Assembly (NCBI RefSeq): GCF_900099685.1
Contig: NZ_FNDW01000002.1
Coordinates: 186,001 to 250,000, forward strand
Reading direction: 5' to 3'
DNA length: 64,000 nt
DNA from: Chryseobacterium taeanense
Lineage (GTDB): Bacteria; Bacteroidota; Bacteroidia; Flavobacteriales; Weeksellaceae
Below are positions 2,874-36,417 of this stretch, one piece after another; within the stretch, counting starts at the first letter, position 1; each line of letters starts with the position of its first letter. The notes under the pieces were generated by a model. It was not told where the DNA came from and made no database searches. It worked only from the letters and a program-made list of their open reading frames with translations. The translations under genes were made by a program, and so were the position numbers.

Positions 2874-4343
2874 ATGAAAAAGAAAATTGCAGTAATAGGA
2901 TCAGGATTTTCCGGGCTTTCTGCTGCGGCATATGCTTCTAAGCATGGTCATGAAGTTCATCTTTTTGAAAAGAATAATGACATAGGAGGCAGAGCCAGAC
3001 AATTCAAAACTGAAAACGGTTATACTTTTGATATGGGGCCAAGCTGGTATTGGATGCCGGATATCATTGAATCTTTTTTTAATGATTTTGGAAGTAAAGC
3101 ATCAGATTTCTATACACTCGTTCCTTTAGACCCGCAATTTGAAATGGTTTTTTCCGACGGAACAATGAACATTCCGCATAGTTACGAAGAGATGAAAGAT
3201 CTTTTTGAAAAAACAGAAACCGGAGCCGGAAAAAAACTCGACGAATTCATGAAAGATGCCCAATACAAATATGAAGTGGGAATGCAGGATTTCGTCAACA
3301 AACCCTGCCATTCATGGTTTGAATTTGTATCCCCTAAAATTGCTAAAAGCGCTTTAAAACTTGATCTTCTCACGAATTTTCAGCGCTTTGTACGAAAATA
3401 TTTTAAAAATCCTAAACTGATTGTTTTAATGGAGTTCCCTGTTATTTTTCTGGGTGCTGCACCAAAGGATATTCCTGCGTTGTACAGCTTAATGAACTAC
3501 GGAGGATACAAGTTAGGGACATGGTATCCGATGGGCGGTTTCTCGAAAATTATTGATGCAATGAAAAATATTGCGGAAAAACAGGGAACCCGTTTTTACG
3601 TAAATGCTGATGTTAAAAAGATCAATGTAAAAGACAAAAAAGCCTCATCATTGACCGTAAATCAGGAAGAAATAGACTTTGATGTTGTGATTGCCGCTTC
3701 AGATTATCACCACACAGAATCTAAACTTTTGCCTGAAGAATTCAGGAATTACAATGAGGAATACTGGGAGAAAAGAATTTTCGCGCCTTCATGTCTTATC
3801 TTTTATCTTGGGTTTAAGGAAAAAATTCCTAACTTAAAGCATCATACTTTATTTTTTGAAAACGATCTGGATCTTCATACCGAAGAAATTTATAAAGATA
3901 AAAAATGGCCTACGAAACCTCTGTTTTATTTATGTTGTCCGTCAAAAACAGATCCTTCCGTAGCTCCCGAAAACTGTGAAAATGTGTTTCTTCTGATGCC
4001 TGTAGCACCGGGAATTGAAGATTCTGATGAAATAAGGGAAAAGTATTTCAATGAAATGATCCTCAGACTTGAAAAACATACCGGAACATCGGGTCTACTG
4101 CAGAACTTAGAGTATAAAAGAAGCTATTGCGTAAGAGATTTTAAAGAAGATTACAATGCTTATCAGGGAAATGCCTACGGTCTTGCCAATACATTGTCCC
4201 AGACGGCAGTCCTGAAACCGTCACTGAGAAACAAAAAAATAAAAAATCTCTTCTATACGGGGCAGCTTACCGTACCGGGTCCGGGTGTGCCACCATCCAT
4301 CATCTCTGGAAAAATAGCTGCAAACGAAGCCAACAAAAATTAA
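2874..4343 (+). CDS. crtI: Phytoene desaturase (CrtI type)
   Basis: The FAD-dependent enzyme introduces double bonds into phytoene, normally giving lycopene. The 489-residue protein begins with a Rossmann FAD motif (GSGFSGLSAA, residues 9-18) and DIGGRARQF. Its C-terminus has FYTGQLTVPGPGVPPSIISG, the signature of bacterial CrtI/amino-oxidase carotenoid desaturases. It is the second gene of the crt operon and is followed five bases later by crtB. Other CrtI-like enzymes (CrtN, CrtD, CrtO) look similar; placement next to crtB, crtZ and crtY favours phytoene desaturase. Confidence 0.93.
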   Translation: MKKKIAVIGSGFSGLSAAAYASKHGHEVHLFEKNNDIGGRARQFKTENGYTFDMGPSWYWMPDIIESFFNDFGSKASDFYTLVPLDPQFEMVFSDGTMNIPHSYEEMKDLFEKTETGAGKKLDEFMKDAQYKYEVGMQDFVNKPCHSWFEFVSPKIAKSALKLDLLTNFQRFVRKYFKNPKLIVLMEFPVIFLGAAPKDIPALYSLMNYGGYKLGTWYPMGGFSKIIDAMKNIAEKQGTRFYVNADVKKINVKDKKASSLTVNQEEIDFDVVIAASDYHHTESKLLPEEFRNYNEEYWEKRIFAPSCLIFYLGFKEKIPNLKHHTLFFENDLDLHTEEIYKDKKWPTKPLFYLCCPSKTDPSVAPENCENVFLLMPVAPGIEDSDEIREKYFNEMILRLEKHTGTSGLLQNLEYKRSYCVRDFKEDYNAYQGNAYGLANTLSQTAVLKPSLRNKKIKNLFYTGQLTVPGPGVPPSIISGKIAANEANKN

Positions 4344-4348
4344 TTGCT

Positions 4349-5185
4349 ATGAAAAAACTATTCGACGAACTTTCTTACAAAGTCAGTAAAGAGACTACCA
4401 AACAATACAGCACAAGTTTTTCCCTTGGAATTTTAGCTTTGTCCAGTACGATAAGAAATCCTATCTATGCCATTTATGGTTATGTACGACTGGCCGACGA
4501 AATTGTAGACAGCTTTCATGATTTTAACAAAGAAAAACTACTGAAAAAATTTAAAGAAGAAACTTTTCAGGCGCTGGAAGATCGGATTTCACTAAACCCG
4601 ATTCTTCAGTCTTTTCAGGAAACGGTGCATGAATACAACATCGATCAGAACCTTATTCATCAGTTTCTGAAAAGTATGGAAATGGATCTTCAAAAAATAG
4701 ACTATAATTCTGACCTCTACAAAGAATATATTCTGGGTTCAGCAGAAGTGGTAGGTCTTATGTGTCTGCATATCTTCGTGAATGGCGACAGAAATCAATT
4801 TGAAAACCTTAAACCTTATGCCATGATTTTAGGTTCTGCCTTTCAGAAAGTCAATTTTTTAAGAGATATGAAAGATGATTATTACACATTGGGAAGAAGC
4901 TATTTTCCCAATCTTGACATGACTTTATTTGATAATAATATAAAAAGTTCCATTGAAAAAGAAATAGAAGAAGAGTTCAGACAGGCGCTCATCGGGATTA
5001 AAATGCTTCCTCCATCCTCAAGATTTGGGGTTTATCTTGCTTACAGATATTATGTTTCTTTATTTAAAAAGATCAAAAGAAAATCTGCCCAGACGATTAT
5101 GAGTGAAAGAATCAGAATATCCAACGGTGCTAAAATTTCCCTGATGATGAGCTGTTACGTTCAGTACAAAACCTCTTTTTTATAA
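4349..5185 (+). CDS. crtB: Phytoene synthase
   Basis: This enzyme condenses two geranylgeranyl-diphosphate molecules head to head into phytoene. The 278-residue protein has both Mg-binding Asp-rich motifs of squalene/phytoene synthases: DEIVD at residues 50-54 and DMKDD at 173-177 (within NFLRDMKDDYY). Length and motif spacing are normal. It lies between crtI and crtZ with short gaps. No crtE (GGPP synthase) is in the window, so the substrate must come from a prenyltransferase encoded elsewhere. Confidence 0.94.
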   Translation: MKKLFDELSYKVSKETTKQYSTSFSLGILALSSTIRNPIYAIYGYVRLADEIVDSFHDFNKEKLLKKFKEETFQALEDRISLNPILQSFQETVHEYNIDQNLIHQFLKSMEMDLQKIDYNSDLYKEYILGSAEVVGLMCLHIFVNGDRNQFENLKPYAMILGSAFQKVNFLRDMKDDYYTLGRSYFPNLDMTLFDNNIKSSIEKEIEEEFRQALIGIKMLPPSSRFGVYLAYRYYVSLFKKIKRKSAQTIMSERIRISNGAKISLMMSCYVQYKTSFL

Positions 5186-5203
5186 TCATTTATACCATTA
5201 ATA

Positions 5204-5659
5204 ATGAACTTTCTAATTGTAGTAACAACTTTTTTCGTGATGGAAGGCATGACATGGCTTATTCATAAATACATCATGCACGGTCTGCTCTGGGTATTGC
5301 ACAAAGATCATCATGACCATAGCAACGAAGGACATATGGAAAAGAATGATTACTTCTTCGTCATATTTGCAGTTCCTACCATTATTCTTATGTATTACGG
5401 AACAATGAATGGATTTAATCACTGGTTTTATATTGGATTAGGAATTGCCCTTTACGGAATGGCGTATTTCTTTGTACACGATATTTTTATTCATCAGCGG
5501 ATAAAATTGCTTCGTGACACCCAAAACCCATATCTTTTAGCCATAAGACGAGCGCACAAGCAACATCACAAACATACCGGAAAAGAAGAAGGGGAGTGCT
5601 TCGGATTTCTGTGGGTTCCTGTAAAATACTTTAAAATGTACTTTAATAAAAATAAATAA
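5204..5659 (+). CDS. crtZ: Beta-carotene hydroxylase
   Basis: This di-iron membrane enzyme hydroxylates the beta-ionone rings of beta-carotene to give zeaxanthin. The 151-residue protein has the four His clusters of the fatty-acid hydroxylase/CrtZ family: HKYIMH (21-26), HKDHHDH (33-39), HDIFIH, and HKQHHKH near the C-terminus, interleaved with hydrophobic membrane helices. Its stop codon overlaps the crtY ATG by one base. No crtW ketolase is present, so the predicted end product of this operon is zeaxanthin, not astaxanthin. Confidence 0.93.
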   Translation: MNFLIVVTTFFVMEGMTWLIHKYIMHGLLWVLHKDHHDHSNEGHMEKNDYFFVIFAVPTIILMYYGTMNGFNHWFYIGLGIALYGMAYFFVHDIFIHQRIKLLRDTQNPYLLAIRRAHKQHHKHTGKEEGECFGFLWVPVKYFKMYFNKNK

Positions 5660-6372
5660 TGGAACATTACCTATATCTCCTTATCAACTTTTTTACCGTC
5701 ATCGTCTGCTTTATTTTTTCTTTTCATCCGAAGATACAATTCAGCAGATATTTCAAAGAATTTCTATGGGCTTCACTGCTTGTAGGAATTGTTTTTATTG
5801 CCTGGGATGCCTGGTTCACAAAAATAGGAGTCTGGTGGTTCAACGATAAATATCTGTTGGGAATAAGACTCTTCGGATTACCCATAGAAGAACTGCTCTT
5901 TTTTATCTGCATTCCTTTTTCCTGTGTATTTACTTACTTCTGTCTTACTACATTTTTTAAACTCGACTGGAAACCTTTGCCCCAAAATATCTTTGTGATC
6001 GTATGCATTGCAGCATCTTTAGTCATCAGCTATTTTTTCCGTGAAAGAATCTACACTTTAATGACATTTTTATCAACAGCAGGCAGCCTTTTCATCCTTC
6101 ATTATATACTTAAAGTAAAATGGATCGGTAAAGTTTCGTTCATCTATCTTCTTCTTATGCCGGGCTTTCTGATGGTTAACGGAATATTGACAGGTACAGG
6201 ACTCGAATCTCCCATCGTCAATTATAACCCTGATGAATTTATCGGATTGAGAATCTTAACAATCCCTGTTGAGGATACAGTCTATGGCTATGAGCTTATT
6301 CTGTGGAACATCTTTTTCTTTGAGTTGTTCAGAAAAACAGAAAAACAACCTGTTGTCGAAGTTGAAGCTTGA
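5659..6372 (+). CDS. crtY: Lycopene cyclase (CrtYcd-type membrane protein)
   Basis: The 237-residue polytopic protein belongs to the lycopene cyclase domain family related to CrtYc/CrtYd and fungal CarRA, not to the FAD-containing CrtY of proteobacteria. It has about seven hydrophobic helices and two copies of the characteristic acidic motif: LPIEELLFF in the N-terminal half and IPVEDTVYGY in the C-terminal half. This shows a fused Yc plus Yd arrangement, as is usual in Bacteroidota. It cyclises lycopene to beta-carotene. It is the last gene of the operon and is followed by a hairpin terminator. Confidence 0.9.
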   Translation: MEHYLYLLINFFTVIVCFIFSFHPKIQFSRYFKEFLWASLLVGIVFIAWDAWFTKIGVWWFNDKYLLGIRLFGLPIEELLFFICIPFSCVFTYFCLTTFFKLDWKPLPQNIFVIVCIAASLVISYFFRERIYTLMTFLSTAGSLFILHYILKVKWIGKVSFIYLLLMPGFLMVNGILTGTGLESPIVNYNPDEFIGLRILTIPVEDTVYGYELILWNIFFFELFRKTEKQPVVEVEA

Positions 6373-32829: not shown

Positions 32830-33127
32830 AAACTTAGTAATTATACATTATAGCTTGTATTCTGAATGATACTAAACTTTTTAAACACTTATCTTCAAAA
32901 TTAAGACCATGATTATTGATATTGCTGTAAACTCACCAAATATTTTGCTTCTTTATTATTGTAAAATATCTTTCGTTTCGTTTTTGCTGTTTCGGAAAGA
33001 AAATGCTGTACAATTATATTCTAAGTCGCTGAGAGCAGAAAAGGATTGCTATCGAAAATTAGTGTAAAAGATTAAATGAAATAGAGTAGGGATTACCCGT
33101 AATTGCCCATGAAAACGGCAATACCCC
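32830..33127 (-). other. Probable long leader of the CaCA antiporter gene
   Basis: No gene is seen here. On the minus strand this segment lies between the promoter at 33162-33192 and the antiporter ATG at 32829. It contains a second hairpin, ATTGCC/GGCAAT (33102-33107 with 33117-33122), close to GGGTAAT/ATTACCC-like words. Whether one transcript spans it is not shown by sequence. Confidence 0.35.
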
Positions 33128-33154
33128 AAAAGTAGTCTTGGTTGGACTACTTTT
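33128..33154 (-). promoter_or_regulatory. 27-nt leader hairpin, minus-strand copy
   Basis: AAAAGTAGTC and GACTACTTTT form a perfect 10-bp stem around a 7-base loop. Read on the minus strand, stem and loop are identical to the hairpin at 33316-33342. It starts eight bases after the -7 box at 33162-33169. Confidence 0.8.
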
Positions 33155-33161
33155 ACAGCTA

Positions 33162-33192
33162 CAAATGTAAACAAAATATTTTCACTTCCAAA
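33162..33192 (-). promoter_or_regulatory. Consensus Bacteroidota promoter, minus strand
   Basis: On the minus strand TTTG (33192-33189) is followed by an exact 19-base spacer and TACATTTG (33169-33162). The start site should lie just before the hairpin at 33154-33128. The nearest minus-strand gene is the CaCA antiporter. Confidence 0.82.
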
Positions 33193-33284
33193 CACTAACC
33201 TTTTATTTTCTAATTTCTTACATTTTGACAACAAAAACCACAAGATCGCACAAACTTACAATACAGTTTTCCTGATTTATTTTA

Positions 33285-33292
33285 TATATTTG
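33285..33292 (+). promoter_or_regulatory. Bacteroidota -7 element of the small exported-protein gene
   Basis: TATATTTG matches the consensus. The expected start site (about seven bases on) coincides with the first base of the 33298-33307 segment, which can pair with the start codon. A clean TTTG at -33 is not seen. Confidence 0.7.
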
Positions 33293-33297
33293 TGATG

Positions 33298-33366
33298 TAG
33301 TGTTCATTACCTAGGAAAAGTAGTCCAACCAAGACTACTTTTTACTATAGCACGGAATGAACACTA
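33298..33366 (+). promoter_or_regulatory. Structured leader that can mask the start codon
   Basis: TAGTGTTCAT (33298-33307) is the exact reverse complement of ATGAACACTA (33357-33366), which contains the ATG start. Nested between them is the perfect hairpin AAAAGTAGTC-CAACCAA-GACTACTTTT (33316-33342), followed by a short T-run. The predicted mRNA 5' end can therefore close over its own start codon. Candidate cis-regulatory RNA or attenuator; it matches no riboswitch class known to me. Confidence 0.6.
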
Positions 33367-33911
33367 TGATGAAATATTTTAGATCTTTTCCATTACTACG
33401 TTTTTGCGTAGTATGGTGGTATATTTTCATTCCTTCAAAAGCATATTCCGGTTCGTTTGTACCGGGAGATTCCATTATTTTCGTAGCTGAAGACTCGTAT
33501 GTCTATTCAGAAACGTCTGTATTTATTGCAGGTTCTGAACAGAATAAAGGTTTTACATCAGCTAAAAAGTCCAGAGATTTTCTTAAGAGATCATCTTTAC
33601 CATTTTCTACTCAAAAATCAGTCATTATTGCAGCTAATAAGGCTTGCTATACAGGAAGTCCGGGGAGTCATCATGACCCCGGACGCATTTCTCGTACCTC
33701 AATGTTGGGGATTATAGGAAGCGCTTCTGTGAAGCTTCTTGATAAAACAATAAAACCTTTATTTCTCGCACTTGAAGAAATAGGTAGGGATAGAAATAAG
33801 TTTATAGATAGTGCTTTTTATCCATTTCAAATTACAAATATCATCATCAATCACTTCGTTCGTCCTCCGCCTGCACTTCCACTTGAAGGCACAAAGATTT
33901 TTAACACATAA
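33357..33911 (+). CDS. Hypothetical exported protein
   Basis: The 184-residue protein has an N-terminal hydrophobic segment (FCVVWWYIFIPSKAYSG) after a basic start, consistent with a signal peptide or anchor. It is followed by FVPGDSIIFVAEDSYVYSE, predicted beta. A basic, Ser-rich middle and a C-terminus ending RPPPALPLEGTKIFNT give no family I recognise; the last 25 residues may be translated repeat-like DNA. It starts at ATG 33357 (33366 and 33369 are alternatives) and precedes the surface-protein gene. The expression signals are better supported than the function. Confidence 0.5.
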   Translation: MNTMMKYFRSFPLLRFCVVWWYIFIPSKAYSGSFVPGDSIIFVAEDSYVYSETSVFIAGSEQNKGFTSAKKSRDFLKRSSLPFSTQKSVIIAANKACYTGSPGSHHDPGRISRTSMLGIIGSASVKLLDKTIKPLFLALEEIGRDRNKFIDSAFYPFQITNIIINHFVRPPPALPLEGTKIFNT

Positions 33912-34195: not shown

Positions 34196-35641
34196 ATGAA
34201 ACATTTATTTACAGCCGCCGCAATGCTGCTCAGCATGACAGCATTCGCTCAGGTGGGGATTAATAACACTTCCCCAAAAGCAACCCTCGATATTACCGCC
34301 AAAACAACCGACGGCAGCAAACCGGAAGGACTCATCATCCCTCAATTATCCGGTAGTAATATCCATTCCGCGACAGTAGCAGGAGTCTACGGATCAAACC
34401 AGAAAGGACTTATCATCTATGCAACCTCTGCTGACTCTTCTCCTACAAGTGCAACAGCTAATATTACCGCTGCGGGATATTATTATTTCGATGGAAGTGT
34501 ATGGCAGAAAATGGCAGGTGCAGCAGCGGGTGATACCACCAACGATGCGTGGATCAATGACACCACCAACAGTATGGTAAAATTAGGAACCAAAGCAGAT
34601 GGAACAACAAGAGCAGCAGGAACCGATTTTGTCGCCAAAGATAATGGACAGATCGGAATCGGAACAAGCAGCCCGGATGCAAGTGCAGCATTAGAAGTTG
34701 CTTCAACCAACAAAGGAATGTTAATTCCAAGAGTATCGTTGACAGGTTCTACCGACCAAACCACGATACCTTCTCCTGCTACCGGATTAATGGCATATAA
34801 CACAGGAGCAGCAGGTCTGGTCTTTAAAGGTTTCGTATTCTGGAATGGTACAGAATGGAGGTCAGTGAATAATAACCCTACGATCTCTCCTGCCATTACG
34901 AGCCTTAAATGTACGGATGCCTATCTTGAGCCCAATACATTTTCAGCAGGGGTAGCCTACACAGGAGTGCTTAAAGTACCTTATACAGGTGGAAATGCAG
35001 GTTTATTTTCCGGAGGAACAGTCATAAACTCAACAGTTAATACAGGATTAACGGCAACCTTGAATAGTGGAGAACTTGAAAGCGGTTCGGGGGTATTGAG
35101 CTATACAGTAAGCGGAACACCATTACAAAATAGCCCGATTGCAGCAAGCTTCAATTTAGGATCAACAGTTTTTGGAGTTACAGGTTGTACAGCATCGGTA
35201 GGAGATGGAGTGGGGACGAATGTAACGACAAAGAAAATAATCTATAATTCTGCAAATTCAAATTTTTCATATAGTATAAAAATTGACGACTTAGAGTTTT
35301 CTATTTACAATGAACAAGTTTATTTCAGATTTCAACAAGATCCTTCTTTATCCACAAATTTTAACAGCTTAACAAAGTGGTATTATTCCACTAATAACTA
35401 TTTAGCCCAATCTGTTACTATTACACCATCTGCTGCAACTAATTCAGTAACTGCAAATGGTTCAAATATAGCTAATTGGATAAGATTAGGGAGTGTGGGA
35501 GCCGCTTTTAATAACTTTCAAGATCTTGAATATAATGCAGAATTGATTATTCCAAATAGAAATACTTTATATAGGATATATGCTACTCGATTTGCTGCGG
35601 GAAGTTCTGGAACATATGTTCTCGTAATTACTAAATATTAA
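34196..35641 (+). CDS. Exported surface protein with composition break (mosaic C-terminal part)
   Basis: The 481-residue protein has a signal peptide ending at AFAQ, followed by VGINNTSPKATLDI. A second such segment is at about 150 (IGIGTSSPDASAALEVASTNKGM). These VGIGT-type repeats occur in large Bacteroidota surface proteins that resemble phage tail fibres. Residues 240-340 look like Ig/beta repeats with a Cys pair. After about residue 342 (base 35220) the DNA becomes markedly A/T-richer and the protein turns Asn/Tyr/Phe-rich, unlike the first part and the next gene. No T9SS C-terminal domain is obvious. It is probably cell-surface exposed. Confidence 0.7.
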   Translation: MKHLFTAAAMLLSMTAFAQVGINNTSPKATLDITAKTTDGSKPEGLIIPQLSGSNIHSATVAGVYGSNQKGLIIYATSADSSPTSATANITAAGYYYFDGSVWQKMAGAAAGDTTNDAWINDTTNSMVKLGTKADGTTRAAGTDFVAKDNGQIGIGTSSPDASAALEVASTNKGMLIPRVSLTGSTDQTTIPSPATGLMAYNTGAAGLVFKGFVFWNGTEWRSVNNNPTISPAITSLKCTDAYLEPNTFSAGVAYTGVLKVPYTGGNAGLFSGGTVINSTVNTGLTATLNSGELESGSGVLSYTVSGTPLQNSPIAASFNLGSTVFGVTGCTASVGDGVGTNVTTKKIIYNSANSNFSYSIKIDDLEFSIYNEQVYFRFQQDPSLSTNFNSLTKWYYSTNNYLAQSVTITPSAATNSVTANGSNIANWIRLGSVGAAFNNFQDLEYNAELIIPNRNTLYRIYATRFAAGSSGTYVLVITKY

Positions 35642-35682: not shown

Positions 35683-36417
35683 ATGTCAAACATCTTACAC
35701 AAAATCAAAGCGTATCTCTACGATAACGTTTTAACCAAAGACAATCCCAATGATTTCACGGCACGTACAACCAGTGAGCGAAGCCTTAATGTCCAGCAGA
35801 TCTGTCAGTCAGCCGTTACTCGTGGTGGTGCAGATATCTCTGCTTCTTCGATGGAACATGCGACCGAACTCTTCCTCAAAGAAATGGCGTATCAGCTTTG
35901 CGATGGCTTTTCGGTCAATACCGGGTATTTTACGGCGAGTACGACGATTCGAGGGGTATTCGATAGTCCATCGGAGACTTTTAACAAAGACAAGCACAGC
36001 ATCATTTTCCAGTTTAACCAGGGAGAAAAGTTGCGGGCAGAGGTTCCAAACATTGAAGTCGAAATCCTGGGCGTGGCAGAAGCTTCTTCGGTTATTCTTC
36101 AGGTAACGGATGTGAAGAGTGGTTCAGTGAATGATCTGCTCACTCCAGGCAGAAACCTGAAGATCGTGGGCAACAAGATTAAGGTAGCAGGTGAAGATGC
36201 TTCGGTAGGGGTATTCTTCGTGAACATGGCAACCGATGCCAGAATTATGGTAGAAGAAAATGATCTGGTGACAAATAACCCCTCAGAGGTTATCGTAGTG
36301 ATTCCTGCATTACCCGCAGGAGCGTATCGATTGGAGATTGCCACACAGTTCACCGGCAGCTATCTGCTGAAAGAACCCCGCACGGCAGTTTTCGAGCGTG
36401 AGCTGACGGTTCAGTAA
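35683..36417 (+). CDS. HU/IHF-like domain protein with C-terminal DUF4469-like domain
   Basis: The 244-residue protein has an N-terminal segment (about 1-125) resembling the HU-related DNA-binding domain of Bacteroidota: ARTTSERSLNVQQICQSAVTRGG, ELFLKEMAYQLCDGFSVNTGYF and a beta arm with VFDSPSETFNKDKHSIIFQF. A C-terminal beta-sandwich (about 130-240) carries the DUF4469-type motifs DLLTPGRNLKIVGNKIKV and EVIVVIPALPAGAYRLEIATQFTGS. No signal peptide is seen. Its role is unknown. It is 41 bases after the surface-protein gene, and a 23-bp tandem array begins at its stop codon. Confidence 0.75.
   Translation: MSNILHKIKAYLYDNVLTKDNPNDFTARTTSERSLNVQQICQSAVTRGGADISASSMEHATELFLKEMAYQLCDGFSVNTGYFTASTTIRGVFDSPSETFNKDKHSIIFQFNQGEKLRAEVPNIEVEILGVAEASSVILQVTDVKSGSVNDLLTPGRNLKIVGNKIKVAGEDASVGVFFVNMATDARIMVEENDLVTNNPSEVIVVIPALPAGAYRLEIATQFTGSYLLKEPRTAVFERELTVQ

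Follow-up and report, generated by a model that had tools for sequence, protein, structure and literature searches.

The window, a stretch of 64,000 nucleotides from the genome of Chryseobacterium taeanense, contains a cassette of three genes (ORF1, ORF2, and ORF3) that is preceded by two inverted 27-bp sites, a promoter between these sites, and a sequence that can pair with the start region of ORF1 (Table 1). ORF1 showed a dN/dS ratio of approximately 0.44. When ORF2 was compared across paralogous cassettes, the N-terminus was found to be conserved and the C-terminus divergent. Pfam and NCBIfam searches with ORF1 and ORF2 yielded no family and no informative match, while ORF3 was assigned by Pfam as listed in the table. 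The search of the window against Rfam 15 returned one tRNA only and no described cis-regulatory RNA family. Inspection of the translations by eye suggested carotenoid-pathway-like genes (desaturase, phytoene synthase, hydroxylase, and cyclase-like) at positions 2874-6372 of the window.

Table 1. Features at the ORF1-ORF2-ORF3 locus (window positions)
Feature	Position	Strand	Remarks
Left recombination site, AAAAGTAGTC-TTGGTTG-GACTACTTTT	33128..33154	+	Exact inverted copy of 33316-33342; pair recurs in paralogous loci
Invertible segment (putative), 161 bp	33155..33315	.	Bracketed by the inverted sites; nine genomic copies at 188-bp spacing; equivalent flipped in L070
Consensus promoter, TTTG-N19-TACATTTG	33162..33192	-	7 bp inside the left site; points away from ORF1 (OFF)
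TATATTTG box	33285..33292	+	No -33 TTTG; confined to the nine paralogs of this genome
Upstream arm of the start-codon stem	33298..33308	+	Inside the invertible segment
Right recombination site, AAAAGTAGTC-CAACCAA-GACTACTTTT	33316..33342	+	Nested hairpin of the first-pass annotation
Downstream arm of the start-codon stem	33356..33366	+	ATG at 33357; A of ATG at 33366
ORF1, 184 aa, hydrophobic N-terminus	33357..33911	+	First cassette gene; ten genomic copies; translation possibly starts at 33366 or 33369 instead
ORF2, variable surface-type protein, AQVGINNTSPKATLDI N-terminus	34196..35641	+	Second cassette gene; same position in paralogous cassettes
ORF3, HU-DNA_bdg + DUF4469 protein	35683..36417	+	Third cassette gene; Pfam; behind ORF2 in most other cassettes

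The first-pass annotation had described the region upstream of ORF1 as an mRNA leader whose 5′ end pairs with its own start codon around a nested hairpin. The pairing was confirmed, since TAGTGTTCAT at 33298-33307 matches the reverse complement of 33357-33366 at every base, and the stem was even longer than described, comprising 11 bp. The nested 10-bp hairpin is likewise exact, and the proposed folding check of the leader (33298-33400) with RNAfold formed both helices, with a minimum free energy of -27.3 kcal/mol compared to a shuffle mean of -12.35 (z = -5.3; none of 200 shuffles was as good). The window contains 16 inverted 10-bp pairs whose loop does not exceed 50 bases, compared to 3 to 8 per shuffle. 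Such a pair somewhere in the window is not rare; what is rare is that one falls on a start codon and encloses a second perfect hairpin. The leader matched no Rfam 15 family; the first-pass annotation had likewise recognized no known riboswitch or attenuator class. The RNA 5′ end had been placed according to the TATATTTG box. This box is present; however, TACA instead of TTTG is found 19 nt upstream of it, and a search at N18 to N21 upstream of the box revealed no TTTG. The assigned 5′ end is therefore doubtful. Scans of the region for sigma-70 promoters and terminators gave nothing above chance.

The 27-bp hairpin sequence has a second, exactly inverted copy to its left, which had been overlooked and which changes the interpretation of the hairpin. 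The shuffle expectation for such site matches in the window was 0.01. Both sites are composed of 10-bp arms around a 7-bp asymmetric spacer, which is the layout of a tyrosine-recombinase core site. They are spaced by 188 bp, and their spacers are identical at 7/7 positions in inverted orientation. In Chryseobacterium and Empedobacter, we collected 60 distinct inverted pairs with a spacing of 184 to 229 bp. The 7-bp spacers were perfect inverted copies of each other in 59 of these pairs, despite mismatches in the arms and variation of the spacer between loci, and the spacers had played no part in the selection of the pairs. Such a pattern would be expected of strand-exchange partners that recombine with each other, but not of mere operators or RNA hairpins. 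As judged from the sequence, the nested hairpin is primarily a recombination site and not an RNA regulatory element. Sequences identical to the site that turned up in Cyanobacteria, Clostridia, Bacilli, and other groups were dismissed as chance palindromes; a promoter of the same pattern was absent there, and a partner site was mostly absent as well.

By its sequence, the TTTG-N19-TACATTTG element within the segment is a textbook Bacteroidetes promoter. Apart from the TATATTTG boxes of this species (23 nt), every counted pair had a TAnnTTTG box at a distance of 1 to 8 nt from its promoter-proximal site, and TTTG was present 17 to 21 nt upstream of the TAnnTTTG box at 47 of 68 counted sites. 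Nearly all scorable switches have their promoter directed away from the surface gene; where a recombinase gene is present, the promoter faces it. This near-uniform OFF orientation indicates that inversion is rare or that the OFF state is strongly favored in culture. In L070 alone (G066:C9, pair at locus 2771), the full promoter faced the surface gene instead of the recombinase. Its segment aligned only in reversed orientation with the segments of both L074 (scores of 119 reversed and 66 direct; shuffle maximum, 86) and L071 (108 and 54; shuffle maximum, 78). We read L070 as a natural ON state. The orientation at the window locus itself is represented by one genome of the species, assembled in the OFF state, and the flipped example comes from the relative L070. 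Two further elements were observed near the sites. A potential hairpin (GTAATTGCCC..GGCAATAC) is located just outside the left site (33098-33125), is near-identical in other loci of this genome, and may act as a terminator for leftward transcripts of the OFF promoter. Many Chryseobacterium and Empedobacter switches (L022, L079, L094, and others) carry, next to the promoter-distal site, a partly palindromic motif resembling TTGATTtgtAAATCAATG; in the window, it is found around 33293-33310, at the gene-proximal end of the segment, and it perhaps constitutes a site for an accessory protein.

In the C. taeanense genome, the spacing of the sites is exactly 188 bp in nine pairs and 207 bp in a tenth, and all ten pairs precede an ORF1 paralog. 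In the cassettes examined, ORF1 was generally followed by a variable ORF2 and then by an HU/DUF4469 ORF3 (the C28 and C15b cassettes were followed in part only). Eleven such switches with the same layout before surface-protein cassettes were found in Chryseobacterium taichungense. Several switches, some of them in tandem with neighboring surface-protein genes (MKKHLIILMSLFS...SQVG), were observed at the Empedobacter loci L094, L096, L104, L107, L110, and L119. The tenth site pair of C. taeanense adjoins a tyrosine-recombinase gene, P0001 (contig C10, 31900-33135). Its product matches Pfam Phage_int_SAM_5 and Phage_integrase, and the genome encodes no second recombinase of this type at E≤1e-20; the PDB sequence search with this recombinase and with ORF2 gave no informative match. 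Homologues of P0001 were detected in 88 of 173 genomes (E≤1e-20), and approximately 28 of the 30 closest homologue loci carried an inverted site pair beside the recombinase gene, mostly within 40 to 140 bp of the gene start. The same sites were present in C. taichungense (G161), C. cheonjiense (G019), Chryseobacterium sp. MYb7, sp. ON_d1, and Empedobacter. The recombinase-linked site contains the spacer CAGCATA, whereas the nine distant switches contain TTGGTTG; action of the recombinase in trans would therefore depend solely on the shared arms. In switches beside recombinase genes (for example, L058, L060, and L061), the consensus promoter of the assembled state faces the recombinase gene. 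Flipping would possibly lower the recombinase and raise the surface gene, resulting in a self-limiting circuit.

The paired sites, the matched spacers, the placement of the promoter, the gene order, the paralogs, the linkage to a recombinase, and the one flipped relative can all be read from the DNA itself. We consider it very probable that positions 33128-33342 constitute a phase-variable invertible promoter, which is OFF as assembled and precedes the ORF1-ORF2-ORF3 cassette. The recombinase encoded on C10, a member of the XerC/D-like superfamily, would exchange strands at both 10-7-10 sites and thereby flip the 161-bp segment. In the assembled state, the consensus promoter is directed away from the cassette (OFF). 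After inversion, TTTG-N19-TACATTTG would stand directly before the right site, the mRNA would start within a few bases of this site, and the cassette would be transcribed (ON). In the OFF state, the segment end beside the gene is complementary to the start region, and RNA produced by read-through or weak initiation would hide the start codon. We infer that this copy is able to flip, that P0001 is the flipping enzyme, and that expression follows the orientation.

Two readings would dispense with inversion. If the paired sites served only as operators for a DNA-binding recombinase-like protein, the almost uniform orientation would be expected; however, operators need no exactly matching 7-bp spacers within a pair, and the flipped state of L070 argues against a fixed segment as well, which renders this reading most improbable. 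According to the other reading, put forward in the first-pass annotation, the leader starting at 33298 is a stand-alone RNA regulator, masking the start codon until temperature, a ligand, or an alternative fold exposes it. The stability of the fold (z = -5.3) is in line with this proposal, and so is the predicted accessibility of the start region, which rose when the inner arm was shuffled, both in this species and in C. taichungense; to this extent, the claim that the leader can hide the start codon holds. On the other hand, the nested hairpin is accounted for as a recombination site, the TATATTTG promoter lacks its -33 box, and no Rfam family was matched. Because one arm of the stem resides within the invertible segment, the pairing depends on the orientation of the DNA rather than on temperature or a ligand. 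Homologous leaders that lose the pairing without compensation had been named as counterevidence. By this measure, the 10-bp stem is not kept: the other eight paralogs of this genome retain a 7-bp core, with stems down to 7 to 8 bp and the remainder uncompensated, and the pairing is absent in Empedobacter and most other relatives; C. taichungense shows a related, shifted pairing with some compensatory changes. We therefore regard a stand-alone RNA regulator as very unlikely.

Promoter inversion could, however, be supplemented by an RNA lock, in which only OFF transcripts carry the anti-start-codon arm and stay untranslated while ON transcripts start beyond it. In such a two-layer switch, inversion would both turn the promoter away and place the anti-start-codon arm upstream of the gene, and at least two Chryseobacterium species would share the lock, though in shifted registers. 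The start-codon stem exists only in the OFF orientation, with one arm inside the segment and the other outside. The predicted accessibility of the start region was 0.34 in the OFF state compared to 0.60 to 0.65 in the ON state, with the same sign in 18 of 18 cassettes of both species, although the shorter ON leader by itself raises accessibility. Shuffling of the inner arm lifted the OFF value to 0.50 to 0.55 in both species. In C. taichungense, the start codon lies within a related stem whose register is shifted. There, native arms paired better than swapped arms (P = 0.0001, eleven loci; P = 0.0006 after removal of two outliers; P = 0.68 for the left-site control), but the paralogs are related, and these permutation values overstate the support. 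The covariation seen in the C. taichungense sequences was modest (score of 0.097 versus 0.054 ± 0.011, reached by 0 of 500 shuffles); three of the pairs showed changes in both partners. In C. taeanense, the core TGTTCAT/ATGAACA was invariant among the nine 188-bp loci, and most of the other eight keep 8 bp. The longer stem of the window is unique among them, and its extra pairs are uncompensated elsewhere; the six distinct paralog rows provide no power for covariation and displayed no compensatory change. In addition, a TTGATT..AATCAnTG-like motif is conserved family-wide at the segment end and brings TTCAT or TCATTG to this position for other reasons; where it meets the common ATGAA starts, part of the complementarity arises from it. 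Start-codon pairing was rejected as a general feature of the family, as it is absent in Empedobacter and at most single loci. In Flavobacterium, structure at the start modulates translation (PMC6847099); thus, occlusion of the start codon could matter. Because the kinship of the paralogs inflates the tests, the end motif is conserved, and Empedobacter lacks the pairing, the two-layer switch with its RNA lock is put forward as a tentative and rather doubtful extension of promoter inversion. The start-codon hairpin is possibly a side effect of the OFF position or an extra lock for it.

The transposons IS10 and IS50 are protected against read-through, as only transcripts entering from outside fold to hide the start codon. 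The putative lock would resemble these elements in hiding the start codon only in RNAs that originate outside; however, IS10 and IS50 represent transposon ends and not phase switches. In cwpV of Clostridioides difficile, inversion mediated by RecV swaps the 5′ leader, and the OFF RNA takes an inhibitory structure (PMC5386303). This exchange of the leader by DNA inversion is similar to the arrangement described here, but the OFF RNA of cwpV forms a transcription terminator and the switch is promoterless, whereas here the segment itself contains the promoter, and a lock, if there is one, would act by hiding the start codon. The layout was also compared to that of Bacteroides fragilis Tsr19, a tyrosine recombinase whose gene adjoins a local invertible promoter and which also acts on a distant one, thereby controlling surface products. 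The systems differ in that ten switches (eleven in C. taichungense) precede paralogous protein cassettes here and in that the promoter of the local switch faces the recombinase gene. The local promoter of Tsr19 is mostly OFF in laboratory culture (PMC4747536), and the OFF bias is therefore not disqualifying. For the B. fragilis capsule promoters controlled by Mpi, 13 regions are given in a citing passage of PMC4747536. Mpi likewise is a single master invertase of many scattered promoter switches but is a serine recombinase, in contrast to the tyrosine recombinase found here.

Invertible promoters of tyrosine recombinases are known as a kind; what is new is this instance. In the literature collection searched, no relevant paper on promoter inversion or inversion-based phase variation in Chryseobacterium or Weeksellaceae was found. 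The results point to genome-wide phase variation in Chryseobacterium and Empedobacter, with at least ten switches in C. taeanense and eleven in C. taichungense, every one of which precedes a cassette that includes a variable surface-type protein, and with the linked recombinase in dozens of species. If correct, this would explain how a single clone of these bacteria, which are environmental and opportunistic, could come to display diverse surfaces.
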